A stretch of 20,849 nucleotides of DNA from a virus, in the IMG/VR virus record IMGVR_UViG_3300031223_000049, positions 1 through 20,849 of that record. One strand, given 5' to 3'. How positions within the stretch are numbered: the stretch's first letter is position 1; every line of letters starts with the position of its first letter. Under the pieces are notes generated by a model that was given only the letters and a program-made list of their open reading frames with translations, searched no databases and was not told the DNA's origin. The translations under genes and the position numbers were made by a program. Below are positions 2,811 to 17,100 of the stretch, piece by piece.

Positions 2811-2975
2811 ATGATCGATAACGAGACCCTGCACATTGCTTATAGTAATTACGCAGCGGCGTACCAAGCAACGGCAACCATGAATAAAACAATAGAGATA
2901 GGCATGGGAATGATCCTATGTTCCTTAGCACTTATAACCGTGAGTATAATGCTCGCACATTTTAGGAGATTATAA
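2811..2975 (+). CDS. Small single-pass membrane protein, 54 aa
   Basis: The frame starts at an ATG with AGGAGA 9 nt upstream and ends with a TAA whose last base is the first base of the next ATG, so it is translationally coupled to the helix-turn-helix gene. The N-terminal 30 residues are polar and Ala/Thr/Tyr-rich. A hydrophobic helix (GMILCSLALITVSIMLA, about 33-49) follows and the end is basic (HFRRL), which fits a membrane peptide with a cytoplasmic C-terminus. No family is recognised. Small early membrane proteins of phages often act in superinfection exclusion or host inhibition, but nothing here shows that. Confidence 0.65.
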   Translation: MIDNETLHIAYSNYAAAYQATATMNKTIEIGMGMILCSLALITVSIMLAHFRRL

Positions 2976-3457
2976 TGGCAACCGAGAGATTAAGTGTTGA
3001 CTTACAGAAGAGACTCGACAAAGTATGCATGACACAGACTAGCTTAAGCAAGGTACTAGGAGTCACCGCTTCAACCGTGAGCTTCTGGTGTAAAAATAAG
3101 ACAGTACCTCATTACAGACGCAAAGCCGTTTCTGCTGCACTAGCAGACGCTTCTTTGAAGCTGAAACCTAAAACAATTATCCGGCGTGGAGCTACTAAGC
3201 CATCAGTTGAACGCATTGGTAGTGTGGAAGTTACAAAGGATTCCGCTACCAGCGCCAAGAGTGAAGAAGGAGTGAAGCGGGAAGAAGTAGTGAAGCGGGA
3301 ACAGTCGTACAGTAAGATAGAACTAACATTTGCTTATAATAACGGATATGAAGAAGCACTTAAGACTATCAAAGGCTTGTTGACTGTTCCGACGGATGAT
3401 TCTACTAAACTTTCAATGATTCAAGATTTCCAGCTTCGCTTCAACGAGGCTAGATAA
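2975..3457 (+). CDS. Helix-turn-helix DNA-binding protein, 160 aa
   Basis: Residues 18-50 form a clear helix-turn-helix of Cro/CI type, with TQTSLSKVLGVTASTVSFW containing both helices. A lysine-rich, low-complexity linker (about 60-110) follows, with a short internal repeat VKREEVVKREQ. The C-terminal helical part (112-160) may serve for dimerisation. The protein is a likely phage transcriptional regulator and a candidate binder of the 17-bp dyads upstream, though that link is inference. It lacks the peptidase domain of LexA/CI-type repressors and any AAA+ domain, so it is not itself a sigma-54 activator. The ribosome binding site AGGAG lies 6 nt before the ATG, and the start overlaps the preceding stop. 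Confidence 0.8.
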   Translation: MATERLSVDLQKRLDKVCMTQTSLSKVLGVTASTVSFWCKNKTVPHYRRKAVSAALADASLKLKPKTIIRRGATKPSVERIGSVEVTKDSATSAKSEEGVKREEVVKREQSYSKIELTFAYNNGYEEALKTIKGLLTVPTDDSTKLSMIQDFQLRFNEAR

Positions 3458-3600: not shown

Positions 3601-3801
3601 ATGGCATCAAACGTAACAGTACAGGTAACAGGCGGATCACCAAAAGTAGTTGAAGCGGCAACGGTTCGTGAAGCTATGGAATTGATTGCAATTACTGGTA
3701 ACTACTCAGCAATGGTTAATGGCAACCCTGCTTCTTTAGACGATAGTCTCTCGAATTATTCATTCGTAACATTGTCACCAGCCATCAAGGGCGGACTTTA
3801 A
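3601..3801 (+). CDS. Ubiquitin-like beta-grasp protein (ThiS/MoaD-like), Gly-Gly-Leu C-terminus
   Basis: This 66-aa protein has the compact layout of ThiS/MoaD-type beta-grasp folds: strand (NVTVQVTGG), strand, helix starting TVREAMELI (21-29), strand with YSAMVNG (35-41), the loop PASLDDSLSNY (43-53) and a last strand FVTLSP (55-60). The C-terminus is AIKGGL, so the di-glycine needed for adenylation and isopeptide or thioester chemistry is Gly64-Gly65 with one extra leucine. A JAB protease would have to remove Leu66, and one is encoded three genes on. The genes that follow encode E2, JAB and E1 proteins, which makes a role as a protein modifier much more likely than sulfur carriage. It has its own leader, and a hairpin separates it from the E2 gene, so it may be made in excess. 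The fold call rests on pattern and context. Confidence 0.8.
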   Translation: MASNVTVQVTGGSPKVVEAATVREAMELIAITGNYSAMVNGNPASLDDSLSNYSFVTLSPAIKGGL

Positions 3802-3822
3802 TCCGAACCTTGTAACATTCTT

Positions 3823-3847
3823 GCCGCTTCACGCCTCGTGGGGCGGC
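3823..3847 (+). terminator. Strong hairpin between Ubl and E2 genes
   Basis: GCCGCTTCAC pairs with GTGGGGCGGC (10 bp, two G-T pairs) around the loop GCCTC. Only a weak T-run (CCTTTAACC) follows. It ends 19 nt before the E2 start. It may act as a partial terminator or as a 3' stabiliser that keeps the short ubiquitin-like mRNA more abundant than the enzyme mRNAs. Confidence 0.6.
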
Positions 3848-3866
3848 ACCTTTAACCGGAGTATTT

Positions 3867-5510
3867 ATGAATGTAGCGGAATACGTTTCACAGAATCCTT
3901 CACATAACTTTTCGTCCTATATGTCAACCATTGCTGGGACGATGAACCTTGATCTTCAGAGACTAGATATGGAGGATTTTACTTCCTGTATCGAGAGTCC
4001 TGATCCAAGTATTGTGAATCCAATTTTATTTAAAAAGCTCAACGAAGCAGCAGTTACTGTCGCCATGGAAACTGAGCCTAGCAACTTTTTAAGCGAGTTT
4101 ACCTTTCCAGTTTTGAAGCTAAATCTTGGTAATGAGATTTCTAGACTTACTAGAGAGGCGCAATCATCGAGTCGAGATGCTCAAAATCGGTATGATCAAT
4201 TTAATACCGCCATGGAGCTTACGACGAAGACTAGGATGCGCTTAGCTTTATACGAGAAGATGGAACTCGAAGGGAAGAATATTGATAGCATAGAGACACA
4301 GATCACTAAGATTGAGTCAGACGGCTGGTGGCGATTTGTAAGCTACACAAACGGCGACCTATACTTTCAGACAGGGCCTATACTTATGCGTGAATATAAT
4401 CCCGCAGCTGGTATCGACTTAAGCGTTGACTTTGGGCAGTTCCTGATACGCTTTCCTATTGACGGTAGCTATTCAAACATGAAGGCTTACCCCTTATTTA
4501 TGAATCCGATTAAATACGGAAAAGATGCTATGCATCCTCATGTTTCAATCACCGGAACTTTTTGCTGGGGCGATGCTGCGGAAATAGTGGCGCAAGCCAT
4601 GAGTCAACAGGACTTGGTGACGGCAGCGGATATGCTTCGAGCCTTACTCATAACGTATGAGCCTTCAAACCCATACACAGCACTATCTACGTTTGCGAGA
4701 AATAAAGAGAGAATCCCGTTTCAGAGGATTGCCCATTTAGGCCATAGAGATGCAAGACGGAGAGCTGTTCCTAATCCACGTTACGGAGAGATTGATCTTA
4801 CTAATCCTGAAGATAGGTATAAAGACCTTACGATTCTAAAGAGCTTAGAGTCTAATGGTAAGACTTACTACTATGTGATTCTAGGACAAGGTAAAACAGG
4901 ATTTACTTACTATAGTATAGGTTATGTAAATCCAATCAGAGGATGCTGTGCTTATGGTTTTACTCACTCACGATCTACAATAGATTACACTCACGAAGTA
5001 CTTGGCACGGCTGATGGTTTTCAAATAGTAGAGAAGCACGAGATTCCCAACGGCTTATGGGAAGCCCATCTTCAGAAATGTAACGAAGGAAGACCGAGCT
5101 TTAACGAAGAGTTTTACCTAAAACCCAACATGATAGTGTATGGACTTACGGGCCCAGATATAGTCTTCAATGGAGAAAAAGTAATTTACCTTACGAATGA
5201 TACGTTTATGTATAAAGGAGCTTTAATCGAATCAAATAGTTCTCCTAAGTGGATTGACCTAGCTTTAGAGGAACCTTTAAGGGACACATGTTTTTGGGTA
5301 GACGGAGGAGATAACCCTACTGAATTCTCCGATATTCAGAGTCTAATCTTTGAAGACATAGAAATAGGGTGGGAGTATGTCTGTAATGAGTGTGGCGAAT
5401 CTAATTCGATAGAAGAGCCTGATGAAGTGCTTATACAAAGAGAACGTAGAACAGAATTTATTCACGAGTGTCATAATTGTGGACACATGACAGAAGGAGA
5501 GGACTTATGA
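3867..5510 (+). CDS. E2-like ubiquitin-conjugating enzyme with C-terminal zinc ribbon, 547 aa
   Basis: The protein probably accepts the ubiquitin-like protein from the E1 on a cysteine and transfers it to a target. Residues about 150-275 match the E2 (UBC) core: strands around 155-200, then MHPHVSITGTFCWG (222-235) with His223 ten residues before Cys233, exactly the His-to-Cys spacing of the eukaryotic HPN motif and catalytic Cys. The E2-typical helix and Pro motif follow (DMLRALLITYEPSNPY, 255-270). The HPN asparagine is His here, as is common for divergent bacterial E2s. The N-terminal 150 residues look helical and have no recognised family. Residues 290-500 are an unrecognised beta-rich region. 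The end carries CNEC (506-509) and CHNC (535-538), a zinc ribbon or treble clef. GGAG lies upstream of the ATG. The gene overlaps the JAB gene by four bases (ATGA). Whether the tail acts as an E3-like module is unknown. Confidence 0.75.
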   Translation: MNVAEYVSQNPSHNFSSYMSTIAGTMNLDLQRLDMEDFTSCIESPDPSIVNPILFKKLNEAAVTVAMETEPSNFLSEFTFPVLKLNLGNEISRLTREAQSSSRDAQNRYDQFNTAMELTTKTRMRLALYEKMELEGKNIDSIETQITKIESDGWWRFVSYTNGDLYFQTGPILMREYNPAAGIDLSVDFGQFLIRFPIDGSYSNMKAYPLFMNPIKYGKDAMHPHVSITGTFCWGDAAEIVAQAMSQQDLVTAADMLRALLITYEPSNPYTALSTFARNKERIPFQRIAHLGHRDARRRAVPNPRYGEIDLTNPEDRYKDLTILKSLESNGKTYYYVILGQGKTGFTYYSIGYVNPIRGCCAYGFTHSRSTIDYTHEVLGTADGFQIVEKHEIPNGLWEAHLQKCNEGRPSFNEEFYLKPNMIVYGLTGPDIVFNGEKVIYLTNDTFMYKGALIESNSSPKWIDLALEEPLRDTCFWVDGGDNPTEFSDIQSLIFEDIEIGWEYVCNECGESNSIEEPDEVLIQRERRTEFIHECHNCGHMTEGEDL

Positions 5511-6673
5511 GTATGGATAAAAGTTTAAAAGTTTTAATAAGCCCGTTAGCTCTCACAAAGATAAATTACTGGGTTCAAGTTTCGACAGTCGAAATCAGCG
5601 GCCTTGGTAAGTGTAAGTATGACGCTAACAAACATGCTTACGTTGTATCTGATGCGTGGTTACTGGAACAAGAAAATGGCCCAACGACTACTGATATCGA
5701 GGCAACTGCGGCTGCTAAGTTATTATATGAAACGAGGGAGACAGAGGGTGACTTAAATTTCTGGTGGCATAGTCATGTAAACATGGGCGTGTACTGGAGT
5801 GGTACTGACACCGACACCATTAAAGAGTTTGGCGATAACGGTTATTGCTTGGCTACGGTCTTCAACAAGAAGAATGAAATGCGATCGGCTTTCTACCAAG
5901 GGGCTAACGGGTTTTTACCTGCGGTGTTCCTTGACAAACTAGAGACTGATACTTTTTACAGTATTGATGAAGCTGTCCTTATAGAATGTCAGTCTGAATT
6001 TGAGTTAAAATGCAGAACTAAGACGTACAAACAGCCTAAGTTTAAGAGTCAGATACCTAACCATTTATATACTGGTAAACATATTGCCAAGAAGTCTAAT
6101 GATTATGATTTCTCTAACTACTATGATGAGTATGATGAGTATGCTCAGGAGTATGTCGGATTACTGCCAGCGGATGAGAATGAGGAAAATTCTATTTACT
6201 TGGGTTTCGACTTTAACGGCAGCACAGCTCACCTAGAGCAGATCATTAGCGGTACTAAGAGTTACGCCAACTACCCTCATTATAACCCTTTGACTGATGT
6301 TGAGCGGCGTGGACATGGCGATTTGAATCCCTTCTCTCATCTACTATGGGACGAGGTTACAGAAACATGGAAAGGCTACCCAAAGTTCATTGCAGATAAT
6401 AAAGATGAACACGCTCCGACTTACATGAGTATGGCTCCGTTTACAATAAGAGATTGGTCAGACATTTGCAGACTGTATAAGAAAATACTTTTAAACGATG
6501 CTGTAGGTATTGAAGACATTAATGACTTTGTTACTGACTTCATGGATCTTTCATGGGGGGAAATTTGGGAAGTAGGAACAGATCATAACAATGAGAACTT
6601 CTATGCAGATTACAAATTAGAACTAAACAGATTAAACATTCTTCATAATTACGACAAAAAGGTAACAAAATGA
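5507..6673 (+). CDS. JAB/JAMM metalloprotease (deubiquitinase-like), 388 aa
   Basis: JAB/JAMM enzymes are zinc isopeptidases that cut ubiquitin-like proteins from targets or mature their C-termini. The signature is complete: Glu29 in VEISGLG, then His88-Ser-His90, seven residues, Ser98 and Asp101 (HSHVNMGVYWSGTD). The JAB domain covers about residues 5-165. The C-terminal 220 residues are unrecognised and contain a Tyr/Asp/Glu-rich stretch (YYDEYDEYAQEY, 205-216). I chose ATG 5507 over an in-frame ATG at 5477 because GGAGAGG precedes it and it forms an ATGA overlap with the E2 stop. Likely jobs are removing Leu66 of the ubiquitin-like protein and reversing conjugation. The 3' end of the gene lies in an 85-bp tandem duplication. 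Confidence 0.85.
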   Translation: MSMDKSLKVLISPLALTKINYWVQVSTVEISGLGKCKYDANKHAYVVSDAWLLEQENGPTTTDIEATAAAKLLYETRETEGDLNFWWHSHVNMGVYWSGTDTDTIKEFGDNGYCLATVFNKKNEMRSAFYQGANGFLPAVFLDKLETDTFYSIDEAVLIECQSEFELKCRTKTYKQPKFKSQIPNHLYTGKHIAKKSNDYDFSNYYDEYDEYAQEYVGLLPADENEENSIYLGFDFNGSTAHLEQIISGTKSYANYPHYNPLTDVERRGHGDLNPFSHLLWDEVTETWKGYPKFIADNKDEHAPTYMSMAPFTIRDWSDICRLYKKILLNDAVGIEDINDFVTDFMDLSWGEIWEVGTDHNNENFYADYKLELNRLNILHNYDKKVTK

Positions 6674-6766
6674 CAATAAGAACTTCTATGCAGATTACAA
6701 ATTAGAACTAAACAGATTAAACATTCTTCACAACTACAACAAAAAGGTAACAAAATGACAACAAGA
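6588..6766. repeat. 85-bp tandem duplication at the JAB/E1 junction
   Basis: Bases from about 6588 to 6681 recur 85 bp downstream with few changes, mostly transitions. Each copy includes the run of the JAB 3' end, the AAGG ribosome binding site and an ATGACAA start. In copy 1 the ATG at 6670 overlaps the JAB stop (ATGA) and opens only an 11-codon frame ending at 6705. In copy 2 the matching ATG at 6755 starts the E1 gene. The 85-bp period shifts frame. ACAAT(G/A)AGAA at both edges suggests duplication through a short homology. Confidence 0.9.
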
Positions 6767-7465
6767 TACACTTATAAAGATTCTCTACTCAGACAGAGTG
6801 ACCTCATTCCGCTTGAGGTTCTTGGTACTCCGATTACCATTATTGGGGCGGGGGCAGTTGGTTCATGGACTGCTCTCGCTCTCGTAAAGATGGGATTCGC
6901 CAACTTAACGATTCAAGATATGGATACAATTGACACCGTTAACATGAACAGCCAGTTCTATCCACACAAAATGGTGGGCAACAAGAAAGCAACAGCGTTG
7001 CATGAAATGATCTACGACTTTACAGGCATCTCGATTAATGTGAAGAACTCCCGATTTAATAAAGGAGATAAACTAAACACAAGCATCGTGATATCGGCAG
7101 TAGATTCAATGGACGTTAGACGGAACATATTTGACGGATGCACTAGCGCAGTAGATTGGTTTATTGACCCTAGAATGGGAGCCGAAAGCATGGCCATGTA
7201 CACTATGCAGCCTCATGATCTTGAAGATATGGCAGGATACATAAAATCGTGGCACAGTGACGAGGACTCGGTACATGAAGCATGTACCGCGAAGTCTACT
7301 ATCTACTGTGCAAACATTCTGGCAGGGTTAGTTGCAATGAACGTCAAGAAACTTGCTACAAAGCAAGCCTACACAAGAGTAATGACTTTCGACCTTCCAA
7401 CTATGTCACTAAATTCATGGAGTAAGAACGATGATTCACAAGAAAAAACACAGAACCAGCTTTAA
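6755..7465 (+). CDS. ThiF/E1-like ubiquitin-activating enzyme, 236 aa
   Basis: E1-like enzymes adenylate the C-terminal glycine of a ubiquitin-like protein and often pass it to a catalytic cysteine. The Rossmann nucleotide motif is ITIIGAGAVGSW (27-38), followed by the conserved Asp57 (QDMDTIDTVNMNSQF, 54-68) and Lys77-Lys78 (GNKKATAL). SAVDSMDVRR (114-123) matches the family's conserved Asp motif. Cys177 in HEACTAKS is placed as the candidate catalytic cysteine. The protein is a minimal single-domain E1 without ubiquitin-fold or E2 domains; the E2 is separate, upstream. The ribosome binding site AAGG and start lie in the second copy of the 85-bp duplication. The end overlaps the next gene by 35 nt. 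Confidence 0.85.
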   Translation: MTTRYTYKDSLLRQSDLIPLEVLGTPITIIGAGAVGSWTALALVKMGFANLTIQDMDTIDTVNMNSQFYPHKMVGNKKATALHEMIYDFTGISINVKNSRFNKGDKLNTSIVISAVDSMDVRRNIFDGCTSAVDWFIDPRMGAESMAMYTMQPHDLEDMAGYIKSWHSDEDSVHEACTAKSTIYCANILAGLVAMNVKKLATKQAYTRVMTFDLPTMSLNSWSKNDDSQEKTQNQL

Positions 7466-7655: not shown

Positions 7656-7918
7656 AAAAGCTAGTACAAGTGATTGAAACAAACGAAAGCGCACTAGAGT
7701 CATTGATGGGAAAGCGGGTTACGTTTTTATGTCTTAATTATATCTATGTCGGTGAGTTAGTTGGAGTAAACGAGACAAGCGTATGTCTAAAAAATCCTGC
7801 AATAGTTTACGAAACAGGTAAGTTTTCAGATAAGAGCTACAAGGACGAGCAAAGTCTTTGCGTTGAAGAGTTCTTTATCTCTATGAACTGTATTGAGAGT
7901 TTTGGAGAGTTAAAATGA
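7652..7918 (+). CDS. Small beta-rich phage protein of unknown function, 88 aa
   Basis: Residues 20-55 read as alternating short strands (KRVTFLCLNYIYVGELVGVN), with a pattern like an Sm-type small beta barrel. YETGKFSDK follows, a motif I associate from memory with an uncharacterised phage family that travels with Ser/Gly/Trp repeat proteins; I cannot verify the family name. The gene overlaps its neighbours by ATGA on both sides, so it is translated as part of the operon. AAAGGAG lies upstream of the start. Confidence 0.7.
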   Translation: MKKLVQVIETNESALESLMGKRVTFLCLNYIYVGELVGVNETSVCLKNPAIVYETGKFSDKSYKDEQSLCVEEFFISMNCIESFGELK

Positions 7919-8124
7919 CTAGAGGGAAGAGACAGAAGTGGTCTAGATCTTGGTCTGGGTATAAGTCTGGGTATGGGACTTGGTCTAAATCTAGATCGGG
8001 GTCTTGGCATTATTCTTATTCTTATTCTTATTCTTATTCTGGGTCTTGGGCTGGGTCTTGGTCTGGGTCTAGGCCTGGGTATTGGGCCTGGGCTTGGTCT
8101 AAATTAGGAGAACGAAATGATTAG
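7915..8124 (+). CDS. Ser/Gly/Trp/Tyr repeat peptide 1, 69 aa
   Basis: After a basic start (MTRGKRQK) almost every second residue is serine, alternating with Trp, Gly, Tyr, Arg or Lys (YSYSYSYSYSGSW in the middle). The end is SKLGERND. No globular domain is expected; the composition fits a disordered, aromatic-rich peptide. The DNA repeats TCTTGG, TCTGGG and TATTCT hexamers, so length can vary by slippage. It overlaps the upstream gene by ATGA and the next gene by 8 nt. A second copy with the same start and end motifs follows. Confidence 0.65.
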   Translation: MTRGKRQKWSRSWSGYKSGYGTWSKSRSGSWHYSYSYSYSYSGSWAGSWSGSRPGYWAWAWSKLGERND

Positions 8125-8275
8125 AGGGAAAAGACAGAAGGGCTCTTGGTCTTGGTCTTGGTCTAGGTCTGGTTCTAGGTCTGTGCCCTGGTCTGGGTCT
8201 GGCTCTGGGTCTTGGTCTTGGCCTGTCTCTAGGCTTAGGTCTAAACTAGGGGAACGAAATGATAAAGGAGAATAA
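8117..8275 (+). CDS. Ser/Gly/Trp repeat peptide 2, 52 aa
   Basis: The frame starts at ATG 8117 with AGGAG six nt upstream and ends at TAA 8273. It repeats the design of the peptide before it: MIRGKRQK, a Ser-X dipeptide core (SWSWSWSRSGSRS), then SKLGERND and two extra residues. The conserved flanks around a variable core point to tandem duplication of one gene. It overlaps the first peptide by 8 nt in another frame and lies 3 nt before the next gene. Confidence 0.6.
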   Translation: MIRGKRQKGSWSWSWSRSGSRSVPWSGSGSGSWSWPVSRLRSKLGERNDKGE

Positions 8276-8278
8276 AAG

Positions 8279-8857
8279 ATGAGTTTTTTTGATAAGTACG
8301 GAAACATTTTACCGAACAATAATCAACCTACTAGCGAGAATCCAAGCACGTTTAATGCGGCATACTTCTTTAGTAAAGTAGCGAGAGGTATTGAGATGGA
8401 TAACCGTATCGAGGCTATTAAATTTAAGAGCAAGTATCTCACAAACGGGAAGACTTGGAGGACGATGGAAAACGATGCGAACCCTGACTGGTCACTTGAT
8501 GAGAAAATATCAACATGTGCCTTCTTTTCTTTTAACAACGACAAAAAATGGCTCAAGAAGATTCCTTTATTTACTAAAGATATTAGTCATTATAGGCCTG
8601 ACGTTTTTGCTTTTGTTTTAGGGAGCAAATACAAGTGGTTACGATTCTTTCTCTATCCTCTTGTTAAATTTAAAATGACTACCTCGATGTATGCGTTCTC
8701 TGTTAATCCAGTAGGCGAGTCTAGCGGGGCTCAACTAGCCTTCATCAAGGCAAGTGGATGGGGGGACACCGAATTCATAGATAAAAACGAATGGCGAGCA
8801 GTTTTTGCCAGCTACTACCCTCAAGTGGGCCAACCTACTAGGAGATTATGGGAATAA
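8279..8857 (+). CDS. Phage protein of unknown function, 192 aa
   Basis: AAAGGAG precedes the ATG by about 8 nt and the gene follows the repeat peptides by 3 nt, so it closes the operon that begins at the E2 gene. The protein has a polar Asn/Ser/Pro-rich start, a basic helical segment, then aromatic-rich beta segments (WLRFFLYPLVKFKM around 127-140, ASGWGDTEF near 164). The hydrophobic stretch near 120-140 is broken by Lys/Arg, so I do not call it a membrane helix. I do not recognise the family. A promoter for the replication module begins right after its stop codon. Confidence 0.75.
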   Translation: MSFFDKYGNILPNNNQPTSENPSTFNAAYFFSKVARGIEMDNRIEAIKFKSKYLTNGKTWRTMENDANPDWSLDEKISTCAFFSFNNDKKWLKKIPLFTKDISHYRPDVFAFVLGSKYKWLRFFLYPLVKFKMTTSMYAFSVNPVGESSGAQLAFIKASGWGDTEFIDKNEWRAVFASYYPQVGQPTRRLWE

Positions 8858-8889: not shown

Positions 8890-8921
8890 GGAAAACTAAC
8901 AACGAAACACAGGTCTTGCGA

Positions 8922-11312
8922 ATGTCACAGAACAGTTTAATCCAGATTCTCGGATTGAGAGAATACTTTGACCAAAAAGAGCAGCGTTTAAAAAAGAAAC
9001 ACGCCTTCTTTGATAAAGAATGGAGAGCTAGGTCGGTGGGCGACCTTTTTGCTAACGTGGATGAGTATCTTAAAGATATACCAGAGGATGAACGATGGAA
9101 TCTTTATTATACTGCTGCCAATTGCTTTGAAAGAGCGGGGCGAGTCCTTGATTACCAACACATCTTACCAATAGATATTGATGGCATCGTCCGTGAAGAC
9201 TATCAGAGTTACATACCCGTGATACTTGAATCGTTGGGTCTGCAACTTGATCAGACAGGAGTCGTGTTCACAGGAAACGGGCTACAGTTTATCATAGGAC
9301 TGGAAGATCCTATCTCCCATGATTCATACTTCGATGAGCATCGTGTCTACTATAAAGCACTATGCGACAAGCTGCAAAACTCCTTAAATGAGTCCGGTTT
9401 AGTGGGGGAAGTTGATGCTTCTGTGTTCTCTCCAGCAAGATTACTCAGACTCCCTAATACGCTAAACATTAAACCTGAAAAGGGGGAACATAAAGCCTTC
9501 CTCATCAATGGAAACATAGAGCTTGTAGATTTCGACCTTGTTACTCGAAGTGGGATTCCGATAGTCGATATGACTGAACAGATAAGCCCTTCGATGCTAG
9601 TCCATCTTCCTCCAGCTGATGCGAAAGGCGTGACAGAAGGCTGCGATTTCTTGAAGCATTGCTACGAGAATCAAGAAGCAATCTCCGAGCCTCAATGGTA
9701 CGCCATGCTATCTGTGTTAGGTAGGGTAGAAGGAGGCGCTGATCTGGTACACGAATATAGTATCGGGCATCCAAGCTACAACGAGACGGCTACCAACTCC
9801 AAGATGCAACAGTCACTACAAACAGCAGGGCCTCGGACTTGCGATAATATCAATACGCTGTGGGATGGCTGCTCATCCTGCCAAAACTGGGGGAAATGTA
9901 AGTCACCCATCACATTACAATCAGCCTTGTATATAAAGACCAAGGATACAGGATTCTATAACGTAGTAACGGATGCAAATGGCATGGTTAAGAAAGGCAA
10001 GCCCGAGTACAACGATCTTAGGATGCACTTTGAAAACACCCATCCCTATATCACGGTAAGTGATTCGGGTAACGTGTATCTCTGGGAAGATAACTATTGG
10101 CAAGATATAGGGATCAAGTATCTCGATTCATTTGCTGAAAGTAACTTCGACCCTTCGCCTACCAACGCTATATGTAATGAGTTCCGTGGCAAGATACAGC
10201 GTACCAATCTACGTGACCATGATTGGTTTGAGATTGAACACATGATTAACTTCAAGAATGGTGTACTGAACATAGACACCATGGAAATGGTACCTACGAG
10301 TAAAGACTTTGGGTTTAAATATTCACTTCCCTTTGAGTACGATCCTACGCAGAAAGCCCCACGCTTCGAGCAGTTCATGGATGAGATCACTATAGGCGAC
10401 AAGAAGACGCAACAGGTTCTACTGGAATACATGGGCTATAGTTTATCTGGTATGGATGCAGCTCTAGGAAGTAAGGCTCTGATCTTATCTGGTGACGGAA
10501 GTAACGGGAAGTCTGTATTCATGGATACATTAAAGTTTTTAGCGGGTGACGGGAACTACACTACCCTATCGATGGGGCGTGAGATAAATAAACCAGAAAA
10601 TAGATACCAATTAGATGGAAAGTTATTTAATATCTCAGAAGAAACTCCAACCAACGCCATGGTAGATAACTCTATCTTTAAAGCATTGGTAACAGGCGGT
10701 GAGGTGCAAGCGCGGAAGCTGTATTGTGATGCTTATTCTATGAAGAACAAAGCAAAGATCATTATGGCGTGTAACGAGTTACCATCTACGCAAGACCTTA
10801 GCTTCGGTATGATGCGCAGGCTCCTCATCGTCCCCTTCAATGCCCGCTTTACTAGACACGTTACTGGGTTTGATCCCATGATTCGTGATAAGCTTAACGA
10901 AGAAGCAAGTGGAATATATAATTTAGTAATCTCGGCACTCCTAGAGTTCAAAAAGAATCGAGGTTTTAGTGAATCAGAAACGATAGACAGGGCGATAGAT
11001 AGTTACAAGTATCAGAATGATAGTGTCATGGAATTTGTAGATACAAGAATCATAAGAGACAACAGAGCCATCACCCCCTTCTCAAAAATCTATCAAATCT
11101 ACCGCATCGATTGTGATTCATCAGGACAGAAACCCAATACTAAACAGAAAGTAGGAGGGCGACTGAAAGAAATACTTAAAGATGTAGAGATAAAGAAAGC
11201 TCGCATAGATGGAAAGATAGAAACAGTTTACGTTGGTTACAGAGTAGCCACCAAGGAGGATGACGATGCAATACAAGCTCAAACCTTATCCCCATCAGAT
11301 CACGGCGATTAA
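8922..11312 (+). CDS. Primase-helicase: AEP-type primase plus SF3 (D5-like) helicase, 796 aa
   Basis: The protein likely makes primers and unwinds DNA at the phage fork. Residues about 60-200 fit an archaeo-eukaryotic-type primase/polymerase domain: Asp85-x-Asp87 (ILPIDIDG) as metal ligands and SPARLLRLPNTLNIK (170-184) as the conserved Arg/Leu/Pro motif. A Cys cluster (Cys307, 317, 320, 326) may bind zinc. Residues about 380-500 fit the D5 N-terminal region. The SF3 helicase follows with Walker A GDGSNGKS (524-531), an acidic Walker B-like FNISEET and motif C IIMACNE, and an arginine-finger-like MRRLLIVPF. A C-terminal extension (about 690-796) is probably a winged-helix part. I chose ATG 8922 over a TTG six nt upstream because AGG lies at a better distance. 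Confidence 0.85.
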   Translation: MSQNSLIQILGLREYFDQKEQRLKKKHAFFDKEWRARSVGDLFANVDEYLKDIPEDERWNLYYTAANCFERAGRVLDYQHILPIDIDGIVREDYQSYIPVILESLGLQLDQTGVVFTGNGLQFIIGLEDPISHDSYFDEHRVYYKALCDKLQNSLNESGLVGEVDASVFSPARLLRLPNTLNIKPEKGEHKAFLINGNIELVDFDLVTRSGIPIVDMTEQISPSMLVHLPPADAKGVTEGCDFLKHCYENQEAISEPQWYAMLSVLGRVEGGADLVHEYSIGHPSYNETATNSKMQQSLQTAGPRTCDNINTLWDGCSSCQNWGKCKSPITLQSALYIKTKDTGFYNVVTDANGMVKKGKPEYNDLRMHFENTHPYITVSDSGNVYLWEDNYWQDIGIKYLDSFAESNFDPSPTNAICNEFRGKIQRTNLRDHDWFEIEHMINFKNGVLNIDTMEMVPTSKDFGFKYSLPFEYDPTQKAPRFEQFMDEITIGDKKTQQVLLEYMGYSLSGMDAALGSKALILSGDGSNGKSVFMDTLKFLAGDGNYTTLSMGREINKPENRYQLDGKLFNISEETPTNAMVDNSIFKALVTGGEVQARKLYCDAYSMKNKAKIIMACNELPSTQDLSFGMMRRLLIVPFNARFTRHVTGFDPMIRDKLNEEASGIYNLVISALLEFKKNRGFSESETIDRAIDSYKYQNDSVMEFVDTRIIRDNRAITPFSKIYQIYRIDCDSSGQKPNTKQKVGGRLKEILKDVEIKKARIDGKIETVYVGYRVATKEDDDAIQAQTLSPSDHGD

Positions 11313-12738
11313 ATTGTCGAACACCCACCGAGATGTGGGGTTGTTTTGGGAGATGGGATCAGGAAAGACGGGAGGAGTAATAAACATATTGCGCCAGAAA
11401 TACTCCCAGAAAGGTAGGGTAATGCGTACCCTAATACTATCACCGCTAGTCACTTTACACAACTGGAAGGACGAATTCAAGATTCACAGTTACGCTGACG
11501 AGAACCTGATCCATATACTCAAAGGCTCCAGCACCCAGAAGGTGAAGAAATTCATGGACTGGTCATGTAACAAAGAGACTGGAGAAATAGGAGGTGACTA
11601 CATATACATCACCAATTACGAATCTCTGAACAGCCAGAAGCTATTTGATTTCCTAACTGCATGGCAACCTGAGATTATTATCGCTGACGAGGCTCACTTC
11701 CTCAAGAATCCTAGTGCTAAAAGAACGAAGGCAGCAATAAAACTAGGAGACAAGAGTCTCCATAACTTTATCCTAACAGGAACCCCGATTCTAAATAGCG
11801 TGAAAGACGTGTTCGGTATGTTCCGATTCTTGGATCGAGGGGAAACATTCGGTAAGAACTTTCATGTCTATGTCAACACGTACATGGAAGACGAGAACGC
11901 TGGATGGAAGAATAGCAGTAGTCACTTCCCGAAACTCGTAGCACGAACCGAGAAGTATGATGAGCTAACCGAAAGAATCTATACCAAGTGCCATCGTGTC
12001 TTGAAGAAGGACGTGATCAAGGATCTTCCGCCACTAGTGACTAAGGTTATAAGAGTCGAGCTAAGTAAAGAGCAGATGAAATACTACAAGGAGATGGAAC
12101 GTGACTTTGTTACATTCGTTCAAGAGAAAGAGAAACAGAAAGAAATGTCTGGTGCCGTGGTCGCACAACTGGCAGTCACTAAAGCACTTCGACTCCAGCA
12201 AATTGTCACAGGACACGTCAATACAGAAGACGGAGAGACGATCTTTATTCAGAACAATCCTAGACTGGATGAAGTCTCTCGACTCGTTGATGAGATAGTC
12301 GTAGAGAACGGACACAAGTGTATATTGTGGTGCTCGTTTCGTGCTAATTACATACAACTCTCTAAGCTGTGTGAAGAGAAGAAACTAAACTATGTGATGT
12401 TGACTGGCGAGCAGAACCTAGACCAGAAGCAAGCCTCAATGAAGGAGTTCAATGATGACCCTAATACAAAGATTATTATTGCTAACAGGAGGGCTGGCGG
12501 TATTGGTATTAATCTGGTGGCTGCTTCTTACTCTATTGTTTATTCGAGAAACTTCTCGCTTGCAGACGAGCTTCAATCTGAGGCTCGAAACCACAGGGGA
12601 GGATCACAAATCCACAAGGCGATCACCAAGATAGACTTAGCTGCTGCCAATACCATAGATGAACGTGTCCTTGAGGCATTAAAAAATAAACAAGATGTGA
12701 GTAAACGCATCATCGATCTAATAAAGGAGATCAAATGA
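11266..12738 (+). CDS. SNF2-like superfamily 2 helicase, 490 aa
   Basis: An ATP-driven DNA translocase or helicase. It shows a Q-like start (PYPHQITAI), Walker A EMGSGKT (29-35), motif II DEAH (141-144) in IIADEAHFLKN, motif III ILTGTPI, and in the second RecA domain KCILWCSFRANY, MLTGEQ, motif V RRAGGIGINLVAAS and motif VI with Arg441 and Arg444 (EARNHRGGSQ). The compact size lacks the extra domains of chromatin remodellers and fits phage DEAD/SNF2 helicases next to primases and polymerases. ATG 11266 is preferred over ATG 11260 because AAGGAGG ends right before the latter. It overlaps the primase gene by 47 nt and the endolysin gene by ATGA. Confidence 0.85.
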   Translation: MQYKLKPYPHQITAIKLSNTHRDVGLFWEMGSGKTGGVINILRQKYSQKGRVMRTLILSPLVTLHNWKDEFKIHSYADENLIHILKGSSTQKVKKFMDWSCNKETGEIGGDYIYITNYESLNSQKLFDFLTAWQPEIIIADEAHFLKNPSAKRTKAAIKLGDKSLHNFILTGTPILNSVKDVFGMFRFLDRGETFGKNFHVYVNTYMEDENAGWKNSSSHFPKLVARTEKYDELTERIYTKCHRVLKKDVIKDLPPLVTKVIRVELSKEQMKYYKEMERDFVTFVQEKEKQKEMSGAVVAQLAVTKALRLQQIVTGHVNTEDGETIFIQNNPRLDEVSRLVDEIVVENGHKCILWCSFRANYIQLSKLCEEKKLNYVMLTGEQNLDQKQASMKEFNDDPNTKIIIANRRAGGIGINLVAASYSIVYSRNFSLADELQSEARNHRGGSQIHKAITKIDLAAANTIDERVLEALKNKQDVSKRIIDLIKEIK

Positions 12739-15107: not shown

Positions 15108-15386
15108 ATGGAAGGACAGACAGCAGTAGAGTACACAGCACAACAGGTAGCGCAAGCGTTCCTCAACTCACTAGACTTTTGCATGGCGGATAAGCGTAGA
15201 ATCTGTGAGGTACTAGAATTAGGCTTAACCAATAAACTAACCAAGAAGTTTTCGCGATACATAATCACTGTCACAGTAGAGCCTCAAGTGTATTCAGATA
15301 CTATATACCCAAGCATGATAAGTAGTGTGACCGAAAGCCTTAAATTACTGGACAAAAATAATGAACAAATCAATAGCAATATTTGA
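15108..15386 (+). CDS. Small protein of unknown function, 92 aa
   Basis: TGGAG lies upstream of the ATG. The protein begins with a helical part (TAQQVAQAFLNSLDFCMADK), has a Lys/Leu-rich middle, and a beta segment (RYIITVTVEP). It ends inside the start of the polymerase gene (26-nt overlap), so the polymerase is probably translated by coupling, as that gene lacks a clear ribosome binding site of its own. No family is recognised. Confidence 0.65.
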   Translation: MEGQTAVEYTAQQVAQAFLNSLDFCMADKRRICEVLELGLTNKLTKKFSRYIITVTVEPQVYSDTIYPSMISSVTESLKLLDKNNEQINSNI

Positions 15387-17100
15387 TGTAGAAACTAACG
15401 GCTTCCTAGATGCGCTAGATGTGGCACACAGTATCTGTATCACCACGCTAGATGGAGAGAAATTCAGCTGTACAGACGCTGCTCCTAGACACATGGGCTA
15501 TCTCCCCCTGTCTCGTGGGTTAGAGATATTAGAAAAGTGTGACATAATTGTTGGACATAATATCTGCGGCTTCGACGTCCCTGCTCTTCAGAAGCTTTAC
15601 CCCCAGTTCAAACCCCCGCTACAAAGAGACACGCTTATAATGTCTCGGCTCATGTTTCCAGAGGACAAGCCTCACGGTCTTGCAGCATGGGGCGATAGGC
15701 TCCGAGTTCCTAAGGGAGACTTCGGTAAGCAAAGCGATTGGAAGTACTGGTCGAAACCTATGCAGGATTACTGTGAACAAGATGTGAAGGTTACGGTAGC
15801 ACTGTGGCACCACCTGATGAAAGAACAATACCCAGAAGAGTCAATTAAACTGGAGCACGACTTTGCTGACATTCTCCAATGGCAAATGAAAATGGGAATT
15901 CCTTTTGATGTAGAGGGCGCACAGAAATTAGTAGACGAACTCCTTGTTACAAAGGAACAGTTAGAGAAGCAGATCAAGTCCACGATCCCTGATCACAGGG
16001 AACTGTTCTACCCGAAGGTAAACAACAAGAGGTACGGCTACGTGAAGGGGCAACCTGTCACCAAGATCACTCCCTTTAATCCCGGAAGCAGGGTTCAGGT
16101 TGCAGACTATTTCATCAAGAAACATAGATGGGAACCGCTGGAACTAACTCCAACGGAACGACCCAAAGTATCAGGTGACGTGCTTCGCTCACTACCGTAC
16201 AGAGAGGCACCGTTACTTGCAGACTATTTCGATTGTAAAAAATTACTCGGACAACTACTAGAGGGCGACGTTGCGTGGCTCAAGGAAGTAAAGAATGGCA
16301 GAATTCATGGGAATATTAATCATAACGGTGCTGTTACTGGCAGGTGTACTCATTCCTCTCCTAACCTTGGTCAAGTTCCAAGGGTTACTAGCTTCAAAGG
16401 TCTTGAATGTAGAGGATTGTTTCAAGCAGAAGGAGGTAGCAGCATGGTTGGCTGCGATGCTTCTGGTATTGAGCTTAGAAATCTCGCTCATTATCTGGCT
16501 AGTTATGATGGTGGAGCGTACGCTTCTAAAATACTAGAGTCAGATATACACACAGAGAATCAGAATGATGCCGGACTCCCGACTCGGGATAACGCCAAGA
16601 CTTTTATCTATGCTCACAACTATGGAGCAGGAGATAGGAAGCTAGGTATGATCGTATCACCCGATGCTGGAGCACAGGAACAAGAGATACGAGGCAAGCA
16701 GCTACGGCAACAGTTCATGGCCAAGGTCACGGGGCTTAAGTTTCTGATTCAAGATATAAAATCCACGTCTAAGGTACGGGGGTTCTTGTATGGACTAGAC
16801 GGAAGGAAGCTTAACATTAGATCAGACCACATGGCACTGAATACCCTGCTTCAAGGGGCGGGTGCTGTTATCATGAAGAAAGCGACTGTCCTCCAATGGA
16901 GGGAGTTCGGCCGAAACCGAGGCGCATATCCGCTACTACATATACACGACGAAACACAAAACATGATACCTAAGGAGTATGTAAATGAGTTTAGCAGCAT
17001 ATCAGAACAGTCAATTAGAGATGCAGGAGTACACTACGATTTCAAGTGTCCTCTTGATGGCGAAGCAAAAAGCGGAGGAACATGGGCTGAGACTCACTGA
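15361..17100 (+). CDS. Family A DNA polymerase, T7-like, with 3'-5' exonuclease, 579 aa
   Basis: This is the replicative or repair polymerase of the phage. The exonuclease is complete: Exo I Asp9-x-Glu11 (FDVETNG), Exo II VGHNICGFD, Exo III Tyr137-x3-Asp141 (YCEQDV). Polymerase motif A is GCDASGIELR with Asp366. Motif B is RDNAKTFIYAHNYGAG with Arg409, Lys413, Tyr417 and Tyr421, nearly identical to T7 gp5. Motif C is HDE with Asp530. The spacing from Exo III to motif A is 225 residues against about 301 in T7, the size of the thioredoxin-binding insertion of T7, which thus seems absent. Glu/Asp residues for catalysis are all present. The ribosome binding site is weak; coupling to the upstream gene is likely. 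Confidence 0.93.
   Translation: MNKSIAIFDVETNGFLDALDVAHSICITTLDGEKFSCTDAAPRHMGYLPLSRGLEILEKCDIIVGHNICGFDVPALQKLYPQFKPPLQRDTLIMSRLMFPEDKPHGLAAWGDRLRVPKGDFGKQSDWKYWSKPMQDYCEQDVKVTVALWHHLMKEQYPEESIKLEHDFADILQWQMKMGIPFDVEGAQKLVDELLVTKEQLEKQIKSTIPDHRELFYPKVNNKRYGYVKGQPVTKITPFNPGSRVQVADYFIKKHRWEPLELTPTERPKVSGDVLRSLPYREAPLLADYFDCKKLLGQLLEGDVAWLKEVKNGRIHGNINHNGAVTGRCTHSSPNLGQVPRVTSFKGLECRGLFQAEGGSSMVGCDASGIELRNLAHYLASYDGGAYASKILESDIHTENQNDAGLPTRDNAKTFIYAHNYGAGDRKLGMIVSPDAGAQEQEIRGKQLRQQFMAKVTGLKFLIQDIKSTSKVRGFLYGLDGRKLNIRSDHMALNTLLQGAGAVIMKKATVLQWREFGRNRGAYPLLHIHDETQNMIPKEYVNEFSSISEQSIRDAGVHYDFKCPLDGEAKSGGTWAETH

Follow-up and report, generated by a model that had tools for sequence, protein, structure and literature searches.

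A predicted ubiquitin-like conjugation pathway encoded beside the replication genes of a phage

Described conjugation systems and the phage locus

In type II CBASS, Cap2 is an E2-E1 fusion that joins a CD-NTase to targets. The bacterial Bil operon (BilABCD) unites a ubiquitin-like protein (Ubl) with E2, JAB and E1; BilA has two Ubl domains, BilD is a bipartite E1 that includes a Cys domain, and BilB carries a CEHH motif (PMC11354881). PRTRC elements are class 6d of the 2006 survey of Iyer, which in its passages on this class gives the order ParB-E-C(Ubl)-F-B(E2)-A(JAB)-ThiF and an E2 in which the upstream His is absent and a downstream His is conserved (PMC1779556). Where the survey deals with such genes, it also covers Ubl/JAB pairs of tail assembly and E1/E2 operons of bacteria, and a phage Ubl-E2-JAB-E1 set is not described in those passages (PMC1779556). 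Papers on jumbo phages, crAss-phages and hankyphages describe no phage-encoded set in the passages reached by the terms checked. More generally, no description of a phage Ubl-E2-JAB-E1 set was found in the open-access literature searched, and an earlier mention is possible outside open-licence papers.

The whole stretch of DNA analysed here (the window; 20,849 bases of a virus record) contains four consecutive plus-strand genes between a helix-turn-helix (HTH) regulator and a replication block, and all four open reading frames lie where a previous sequence-only reading had placed them. The first (3601..3801, plus strand) is an intact frame for a Ubl of 66 residues that ends in ...AIKGGL, one residue past the di-glycine, and the second (3867..5510, plus strand) is an intact frame for an E2 of 547 residues with a UBC domain at about 133-289. 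The third (5507..6673, plus strand) encodes a JAMM/JAB metalloprotease, predicted to process or deconjugate the Ubl, the ATG of which lies within the E2 stop codon (ATGA, in AGGACTTATGAGT), confirming the overlap that had been noticed earlier. The fourth (6755..7465, plus strand) encodes an E1-like adenylating enzyme of 236 residues with a single adenylation domain. JAB and E1 are kept apart by an 85-bp tandem duplication (window 6594-6758) of the JAB 3' end and the E1 start, 77 of 81 bases being identical between the copies. Because the first copy retains an ATGA overlap, it is probable from the sequence that JAB and E1 once overlapped, as E2 and JAB do now. Further downstream, a 69-residue open reading frame at 7915-8124 has a near-repetitive Ser/Tyr/Trp/Gly composition (SYSYSYSYSGSWAGSWSGS), and a DQDQDPEPDPDQ-rich frame is found at 8104-8319 on the strand opposite to it.

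The gene upstream of the set (2975..3457, plus strand) encodes a Cro/CI-type HTH regulator that matches HTH_3 with an E-value of 1.2e-4 and 22.5 bits, slightly below the curated cut-off of 23. Downstream of the set lie a D5-type DNA primase-helicase (8916..11312, plus strand; PHROG 864 DNA primase, 5e-78; DUF5906 and D5_N), a SNF2/DEAD helicase (11260..12738, plus strand; SNF2-rel_dom, 2.2e-35; PHROG 62, 1.9e-102) and a family A DNA polymerase (15361..17100, plus strand; DNA_pol_A, 1.5e-36), the last of which marks the window as phage genome. The position between a phage regulator and phage replication genes, as first read from the sequence, agrees with these matches. The polymerase shares 47.8% identity with its counterpart in Pseudomonas phage LUZ100 (37 kb), so the window probably represents part of the genome of a tailed phage in the LUZ100 size class. 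The gene set goes beyond chance, given that all four genes recur in unchanged order in a sister phage (L005), where an HTH gene is again found upstream. The protein identities between the two are 61, 30, 47 and 68% for Ubl, E2, JAB and E1, respectively, and the nucleotide differences fall mostly at the third position of codons, a pattern that is clearest in Ubl and E1.

Identity of the four proteins

The AlphaFold2 model of the Ubl (pLDDT 84.4) has the beta-grasp order of strands and helix, and Foldseek matched it to ubiquitin, SUMO, ISG15, NEDD8, SAMP1 and TtuB, each with a probability of 1.00. In the Pfam search the protein by itself had no significant match, and a family profile built from 30 relatives matches MoaD (2.8e-4), SAMP2 (5.3e-4) and PF1061. 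The Gly64-Gly65-Leu66 end is present as had been claimed, so that the predicted fold and the tail together are those of a beta-grasp modifier with a C-terminal Gly-Gly. The tail differs across loci (GG, GGK, GGC, GGL, GGNQ and others), the homologue in the sister phage terminating in GGC. A small open reading frame that ends in Gly-Gly plus at most four residues lies upstream of E2 in 55 of 70 loci, versus 2 of 58 control genes. At one locus (L092, 5686-5934) the Ubl has ...VKGA followed by a Lys/Ala-rich tail and no Gly-Gly, with a full E2-JAB-E1 set around it.

The 547-residue protein consists of a helical N-terminal region (about 1-135), the UBC domain (about 133-289), a poorly predicted middle and a C-terminal part (506-538) with a CxxC...CxxC zinc-ribbon-like motif. 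The whole model has a pLDDT of 59, with the regions outside the core poorly predicted; residues 133-289 are mostly at 80-93 and form a helix, a beta-meander, an HPH...C loop and two helices, with H223-P224 and the predicted catalytic C233 in this core. The Pfam search gave no E2 match for the window protein, a search of PDB sequences with its family profile yielded nothing but coiled-coil and unrelated proteins, and the full model in Foldseek had no significant match, the best (E 0.19) being to an entry that includes an E2. The assignment was resolved by running VIA-align on the same candidates, where the best 50 rows are all E2 enzymes, headed by UBE2S (Z 8.6, 126 residues, rmsd 3.9). A Z near 8, taken alone, may reflect a common structural arrangement. 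The protein is nevertheless called an E2 because the list is uniform, Cys233 is the only invariant column in an alignment of 39 E2 relatives, and Pro224 is kept in more than 90% of them, as is Pro269. In a larger phage E2 group the Cys is invariant in 66 of 66, and one relative (L095) has a Pfam UQ_con match (0.0017) across the Cys region. The sequence-only reading had pointed to His223 and Cys233, both of which are present, and had staked its proposal beforehand on a UBC fold in this protein; the predicted model has that fold together with the active-site Cys. On its well-predicted core, the VIA-align list and the residue conservation, the 547-residue protein is an E2 as far as a predicted structure can assign it.

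For JAB and E1, profile comparison supports the identities proposed, as structure prediction does for Ubl and E2. The window JAB alone matches Pfam Prok-JAB with an E-value of 0.0079. Its family profile finds as best match the Rpn11-like protein of C. subterraneum (Caldiarchaeum; 1.9e-10), with RPN11/PSMD14 at about 1e-5 to 1e-4. Rpn11-type enzymes remove ubiquitin. The five residues listed earlier (Glu29, His88, His90, Ser98 and Asp101) are all there and make up the full metal site of a JAMM protease (E, HxH, S, D); Glu29, which is absent from the search motif, is invariant in 13 JABs. The E1 matches Pfam ThiF at 2.8e-22 and has GAGAVG (the GxGxxG motif), D55, D57, K78, D117 and the candidate thioester residue C177, in agreement with the residues read before. 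Among 94 phage E1s, all keep the GxGxxG glycines and 93 keep Cys177, giving at the sequence level an adenylation motif together with a predicted catalytic Cys. The E1 family profile matches best UBA6 (1.1e-19) and UBA5, as well as ThiF, MoeB, Cap2 and BubCD. With all components identified by sequence and predicted structure, the claim of a complete Ubl-E2-JAB-E1 conjugation set stands.

The Ubl matches to MoaD, SAMP2 and PF1061 and the E1 matches to ThiF and MoeB would also suit a sulfur carrier, with the E1 thiocarboxylating the Ubl, the sulfur passing to tRNA, nucleotide or cofactor modification, and JAB serving as a processing protease. This is very improbable, given the accompanying E2 with its invariant Cys and the conserved C177 of the E1; moreover, rhodanese, thiolase or cofactor genes were not recognised nearby among the proteins scanned. 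It could also be proposed that the Ubl and JAB are a tail-assembly pair of the lambda TAPI/TAPK type, since the tail passages of the 2006 survey place Ubl and JAB pairs in lambdoid tail operons (PMC1779556), and that the resemblance to E1 and E2 is due to chance. The strong E1 and E2 assignments speak against this, and the neighbours in the window are a regulator and replication genes, where an NlpC/P60 domain and tail genes were not found adjoining the set. The predicted UBC fold and the E1 matches effectively refute this proposal.

When compared with described systems, the set resembles PRTRC in having separate genes for Ubl, E2, JAB and a single-domain E1 in the same relative order (Ubl-F-E2-JAB-E1 in PRTRC) and in lying on mobile DNA, and a related Calditrichota E2-JAB-E1 set is near a ParB gene. 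Against the curated PRTRC models, however, the window E1 scores 39.7 bits (the TIGR03736 cut-off is 144.75), and Ubl, E2 and JAB are unmatched. The phage E2 differs from the PRTRC E2, of which PRTRC_B sequences were included in the His comparison, in having the classical upstream H223-P224 ahead of C233, and a scan of the window proteins recognised no ParB. In a 38-row E1 tree, which has long branches and was built with Bil, Bub and CBASS rows left out, the phage, KSB1, Calditrichota and Deltaproteobacteria rows form a group (support 95/86) that excludes PRTRC and ThiF-type rows.

The likeness to Bil lies in the full set within one operon. In contrast to Bil, the phage Ubl is a single domain of 66 residues and not a tandem one, the phage E1 has 236 residues, and the phage E2 departs from CEHH in having C233 and E239 followed by V241 and S246 at the His positions. 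For Bub, where the comparison covers the E1 part, the phage E1 profile matches Citrobacter BubCD at 6e-10 (9ea4, 9ea5; the match is to 9ea5); the BubCD chain has 458 residues with its E1-like match C-terminal, whereas the phage E1 and JAB are separate genes. With type II CBASS the set shares the E1 profile match to Cap2 and a JAB-type deconjugase, but the phage E2 and E1 are unfused, a Ubl serves as modifier, and the scan of the window proteins did not recognise a CD-NTase. The set is neither Bil nor CBASS, nor PRTRC by the curated models, and on the available sequences and predicted structures it is best filed as a phage-borne variant of ubiquitin-like conjugation system.

Distribution among phages and bacteria

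BLAST searches of phage records with the window E2 and JAB gave no match, and relatives were therefore gathered through E1 and motif scans. A degenerate JAB-motif scan matched at least 119 viral stretches, a lower bound, like all carrier numbers here, from one strict pattern, and E1 adjoins JAB in nearly all of them. Among the matches listed, 118 loci were analysed, 47 of which have Ubl, E2, JAB and E1 all recognised; in every one of these 47, E1 follows JAB. The search itself guarantees the JAB motif residues in these loci, but not Glu29, the E1, the E2 cysteine or the Ubl tail. The usual gene order is Ubl-E2-JAB-E1, with a variant in L095 (Ubl...E2-E1-JAB). The sequence-only reading assigned the known sets to hosts or plasmids, which proved too narrow, as such modules occur widely in phages. 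Several candidates were set aside: four matches to the E2 query (L001-L004) share a 35-residue stretch only and have no E1 or JAB match, with no set seen in L001; seven E2-motif contigs (L016-L022) have no E1 and no matching JAB and are chance or unrelated; and the plasmid ThiF matches examined are thiamine-type genes or PRTRC.

A parallel set is found in crAss001 (phiCrAss001), in which gp79 (a Ubl domain followed by an extension, ...KSGA...), gp78 (E2-like), gp77 (JAB) and gp76 (E1) have the order Ubl-E2-JAB-E1 with overlapping E2 and JAB and a replication context, between a DNA primase and a uracil-DNA glycosylase. Its gp79 and gp78 are annotated as hypothetical, gp77 as metalloprotease and gp76 as ThiF. 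The crAss-like JAB and E1 are clear homologues of the window family (5e-11 and 1e-42), while the Ubl and E2 have weak similarity to it (hhalign probability of 34% for E2) and conserve motifs among themselves (...KSG in the Ubl, MHSH...C in the E2). Within crAss-like phages, 74 records have a Ubl-like gene and 74 an E2-like gene. Equivalents of gp76, gp78 and gp79 exist in DAC15, whose host is B. thetaiotaomicron; that of crAss001 is B. intestinalis. The Xanthomonas jumbo phage PhiXhv-16 (L010, 1748-5624) encodes an E1, within which Erwinia phage Ep032 matches, an E2-like protein of 892 residues with HPHM...LCLG and Cys-rich ends, and a Ubl-like protein that terminates exactly in GG; a JAB was looked for in this genome and not found.

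Three contigs are from bacterial metagenome-assembled genomes (L144, L145 and L149, of KSB1, Calditrichota and Deltaproteobacteria). In them an E2-like HPH...CxG protein is followed by JAB and E1, as in the phages, the set near ParB being the Calditrichota one, and they may be relatives that reside on a chromosome, a plasmid or a prophage. A third JAB type (HTHPxMxAFWSGTD, about 450-474 residues) occurs in L037 (419-2548) and L098 (393-3715), followed by a GCGGIGG Rossmann protein that is unmatched by the E1 profile, and in L098 there is additionally a possible Ubl-like open reading frame.

Across phages, replication and recombination genes usually adjoin the set. Downstream of E1, the 113 proteins scanned at 41 loci include 26 AAA_24, 25 DnaB_C and 10 ERF matches; D5 primases are found in the window and L095, and topoisomerases in PhiXhv-16. 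This placement bears on the proposal that the set is a phage-carried, Bil-like defence that tags structural proteins of competing phages. Bil tags phage tails, as cited in the relevant part of PMC12135933, and the regulator upstream of the set is of the CI/Cro type, both in keeping with such exclusion between phages. It is nonetheless improbable, because carriers have the set by the replication block and not in a lysogeny or accessory locus, and because the sequence lacks the features that define Bil.

Proposed pathway and its targets

The genes, the predicted Ubl and E2 folds, the catalytic residues, their conservation and the gene order suggest, with a probability of about 0.8 that leaves the choice of targets aside, that the phage encodes a self-contained and reversible Ubl conjugation pathway, the chemical steps of which are all inferred. 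JAB would trim the KGGL precursor of the Ubl to expose Gly-Gly, and E1 would adenylate this end with ATP and hold the Ubl as a thioester on Cys177. The Ubl would then pass to Cys233 of E2, which would join it to a target amine, and JAB could take it off the target again. The N-terminal and C-terminal zinc-ribbon regions of E2 may choose the substrate, replacing a separate E3. The Ubl of PhiXhv-16 already ends in GG and no JAB was found in that genome, which fits a trimming role for JAB. Trimming cannot be its sole role, as a JAB is retained beside many Ubls that have an exact GG end.

Phage proteins that act early in DNA replication and recombination are tentatively considered the most likely targets, since the module adjoins genes of this kind in several distinct groups of phages. 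This context may merely mirror the clustering of early phage genes, and most loci share descent. Host proteins, themselves a doubtful choice, are the main alternative. One form of it is counter-defence, in which the set would act on the host, for instance by tagging or stripping its immune proteins or by disturbing conjugation through its Bil, Bub or CBASS systems; the biochemistry would be identical and the target different. Bacterial hosts turn related chemistry on phages (PMC11354881, PMC10097602), and the E1 both matches PADLOC E1-E2 models and, through its profile, Cap2 and BubCD. Against this, a decoy or a deconjugase would not require an entire Ubl together with a dedicated E1 and E2, and the downstream neighbours recognised among the proteins scanned are for replication and recombination, not defence or anti-defence, making counter-defence unlikely.

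For the preferred reading of a phage-encoded conjugation pathway, the meaning lies in who holds it. Bacterial Ubl conjugation is known mainly as a host defence against phages, and here the attacker would hold the complete pathway. Its carriers comprise the viral stretches matched by the one strict motif (at least 119) and cultured gut phages, in which the genes of the set carry the annotations hypothetical, metalloprotease and thiamine biosynthesis. The reading predicts a phage-made protein modification that is undescribed in the open-access literature searched. It is possible, although this goes well beyond what can be held with confidence, that several phage groups, crAss-like phages included, control their own replication and recombination through a dedicated Ubl-E2-JAB-E1 pathway, comparable to SUMO and ubiquitin in eukaryotes, and that Ubl conjugation is common and conserved in phages, which may have been an early home for it. 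The finding would in this way bear on the origin of the eukaryotic-type E1-E2-JAB cascade.
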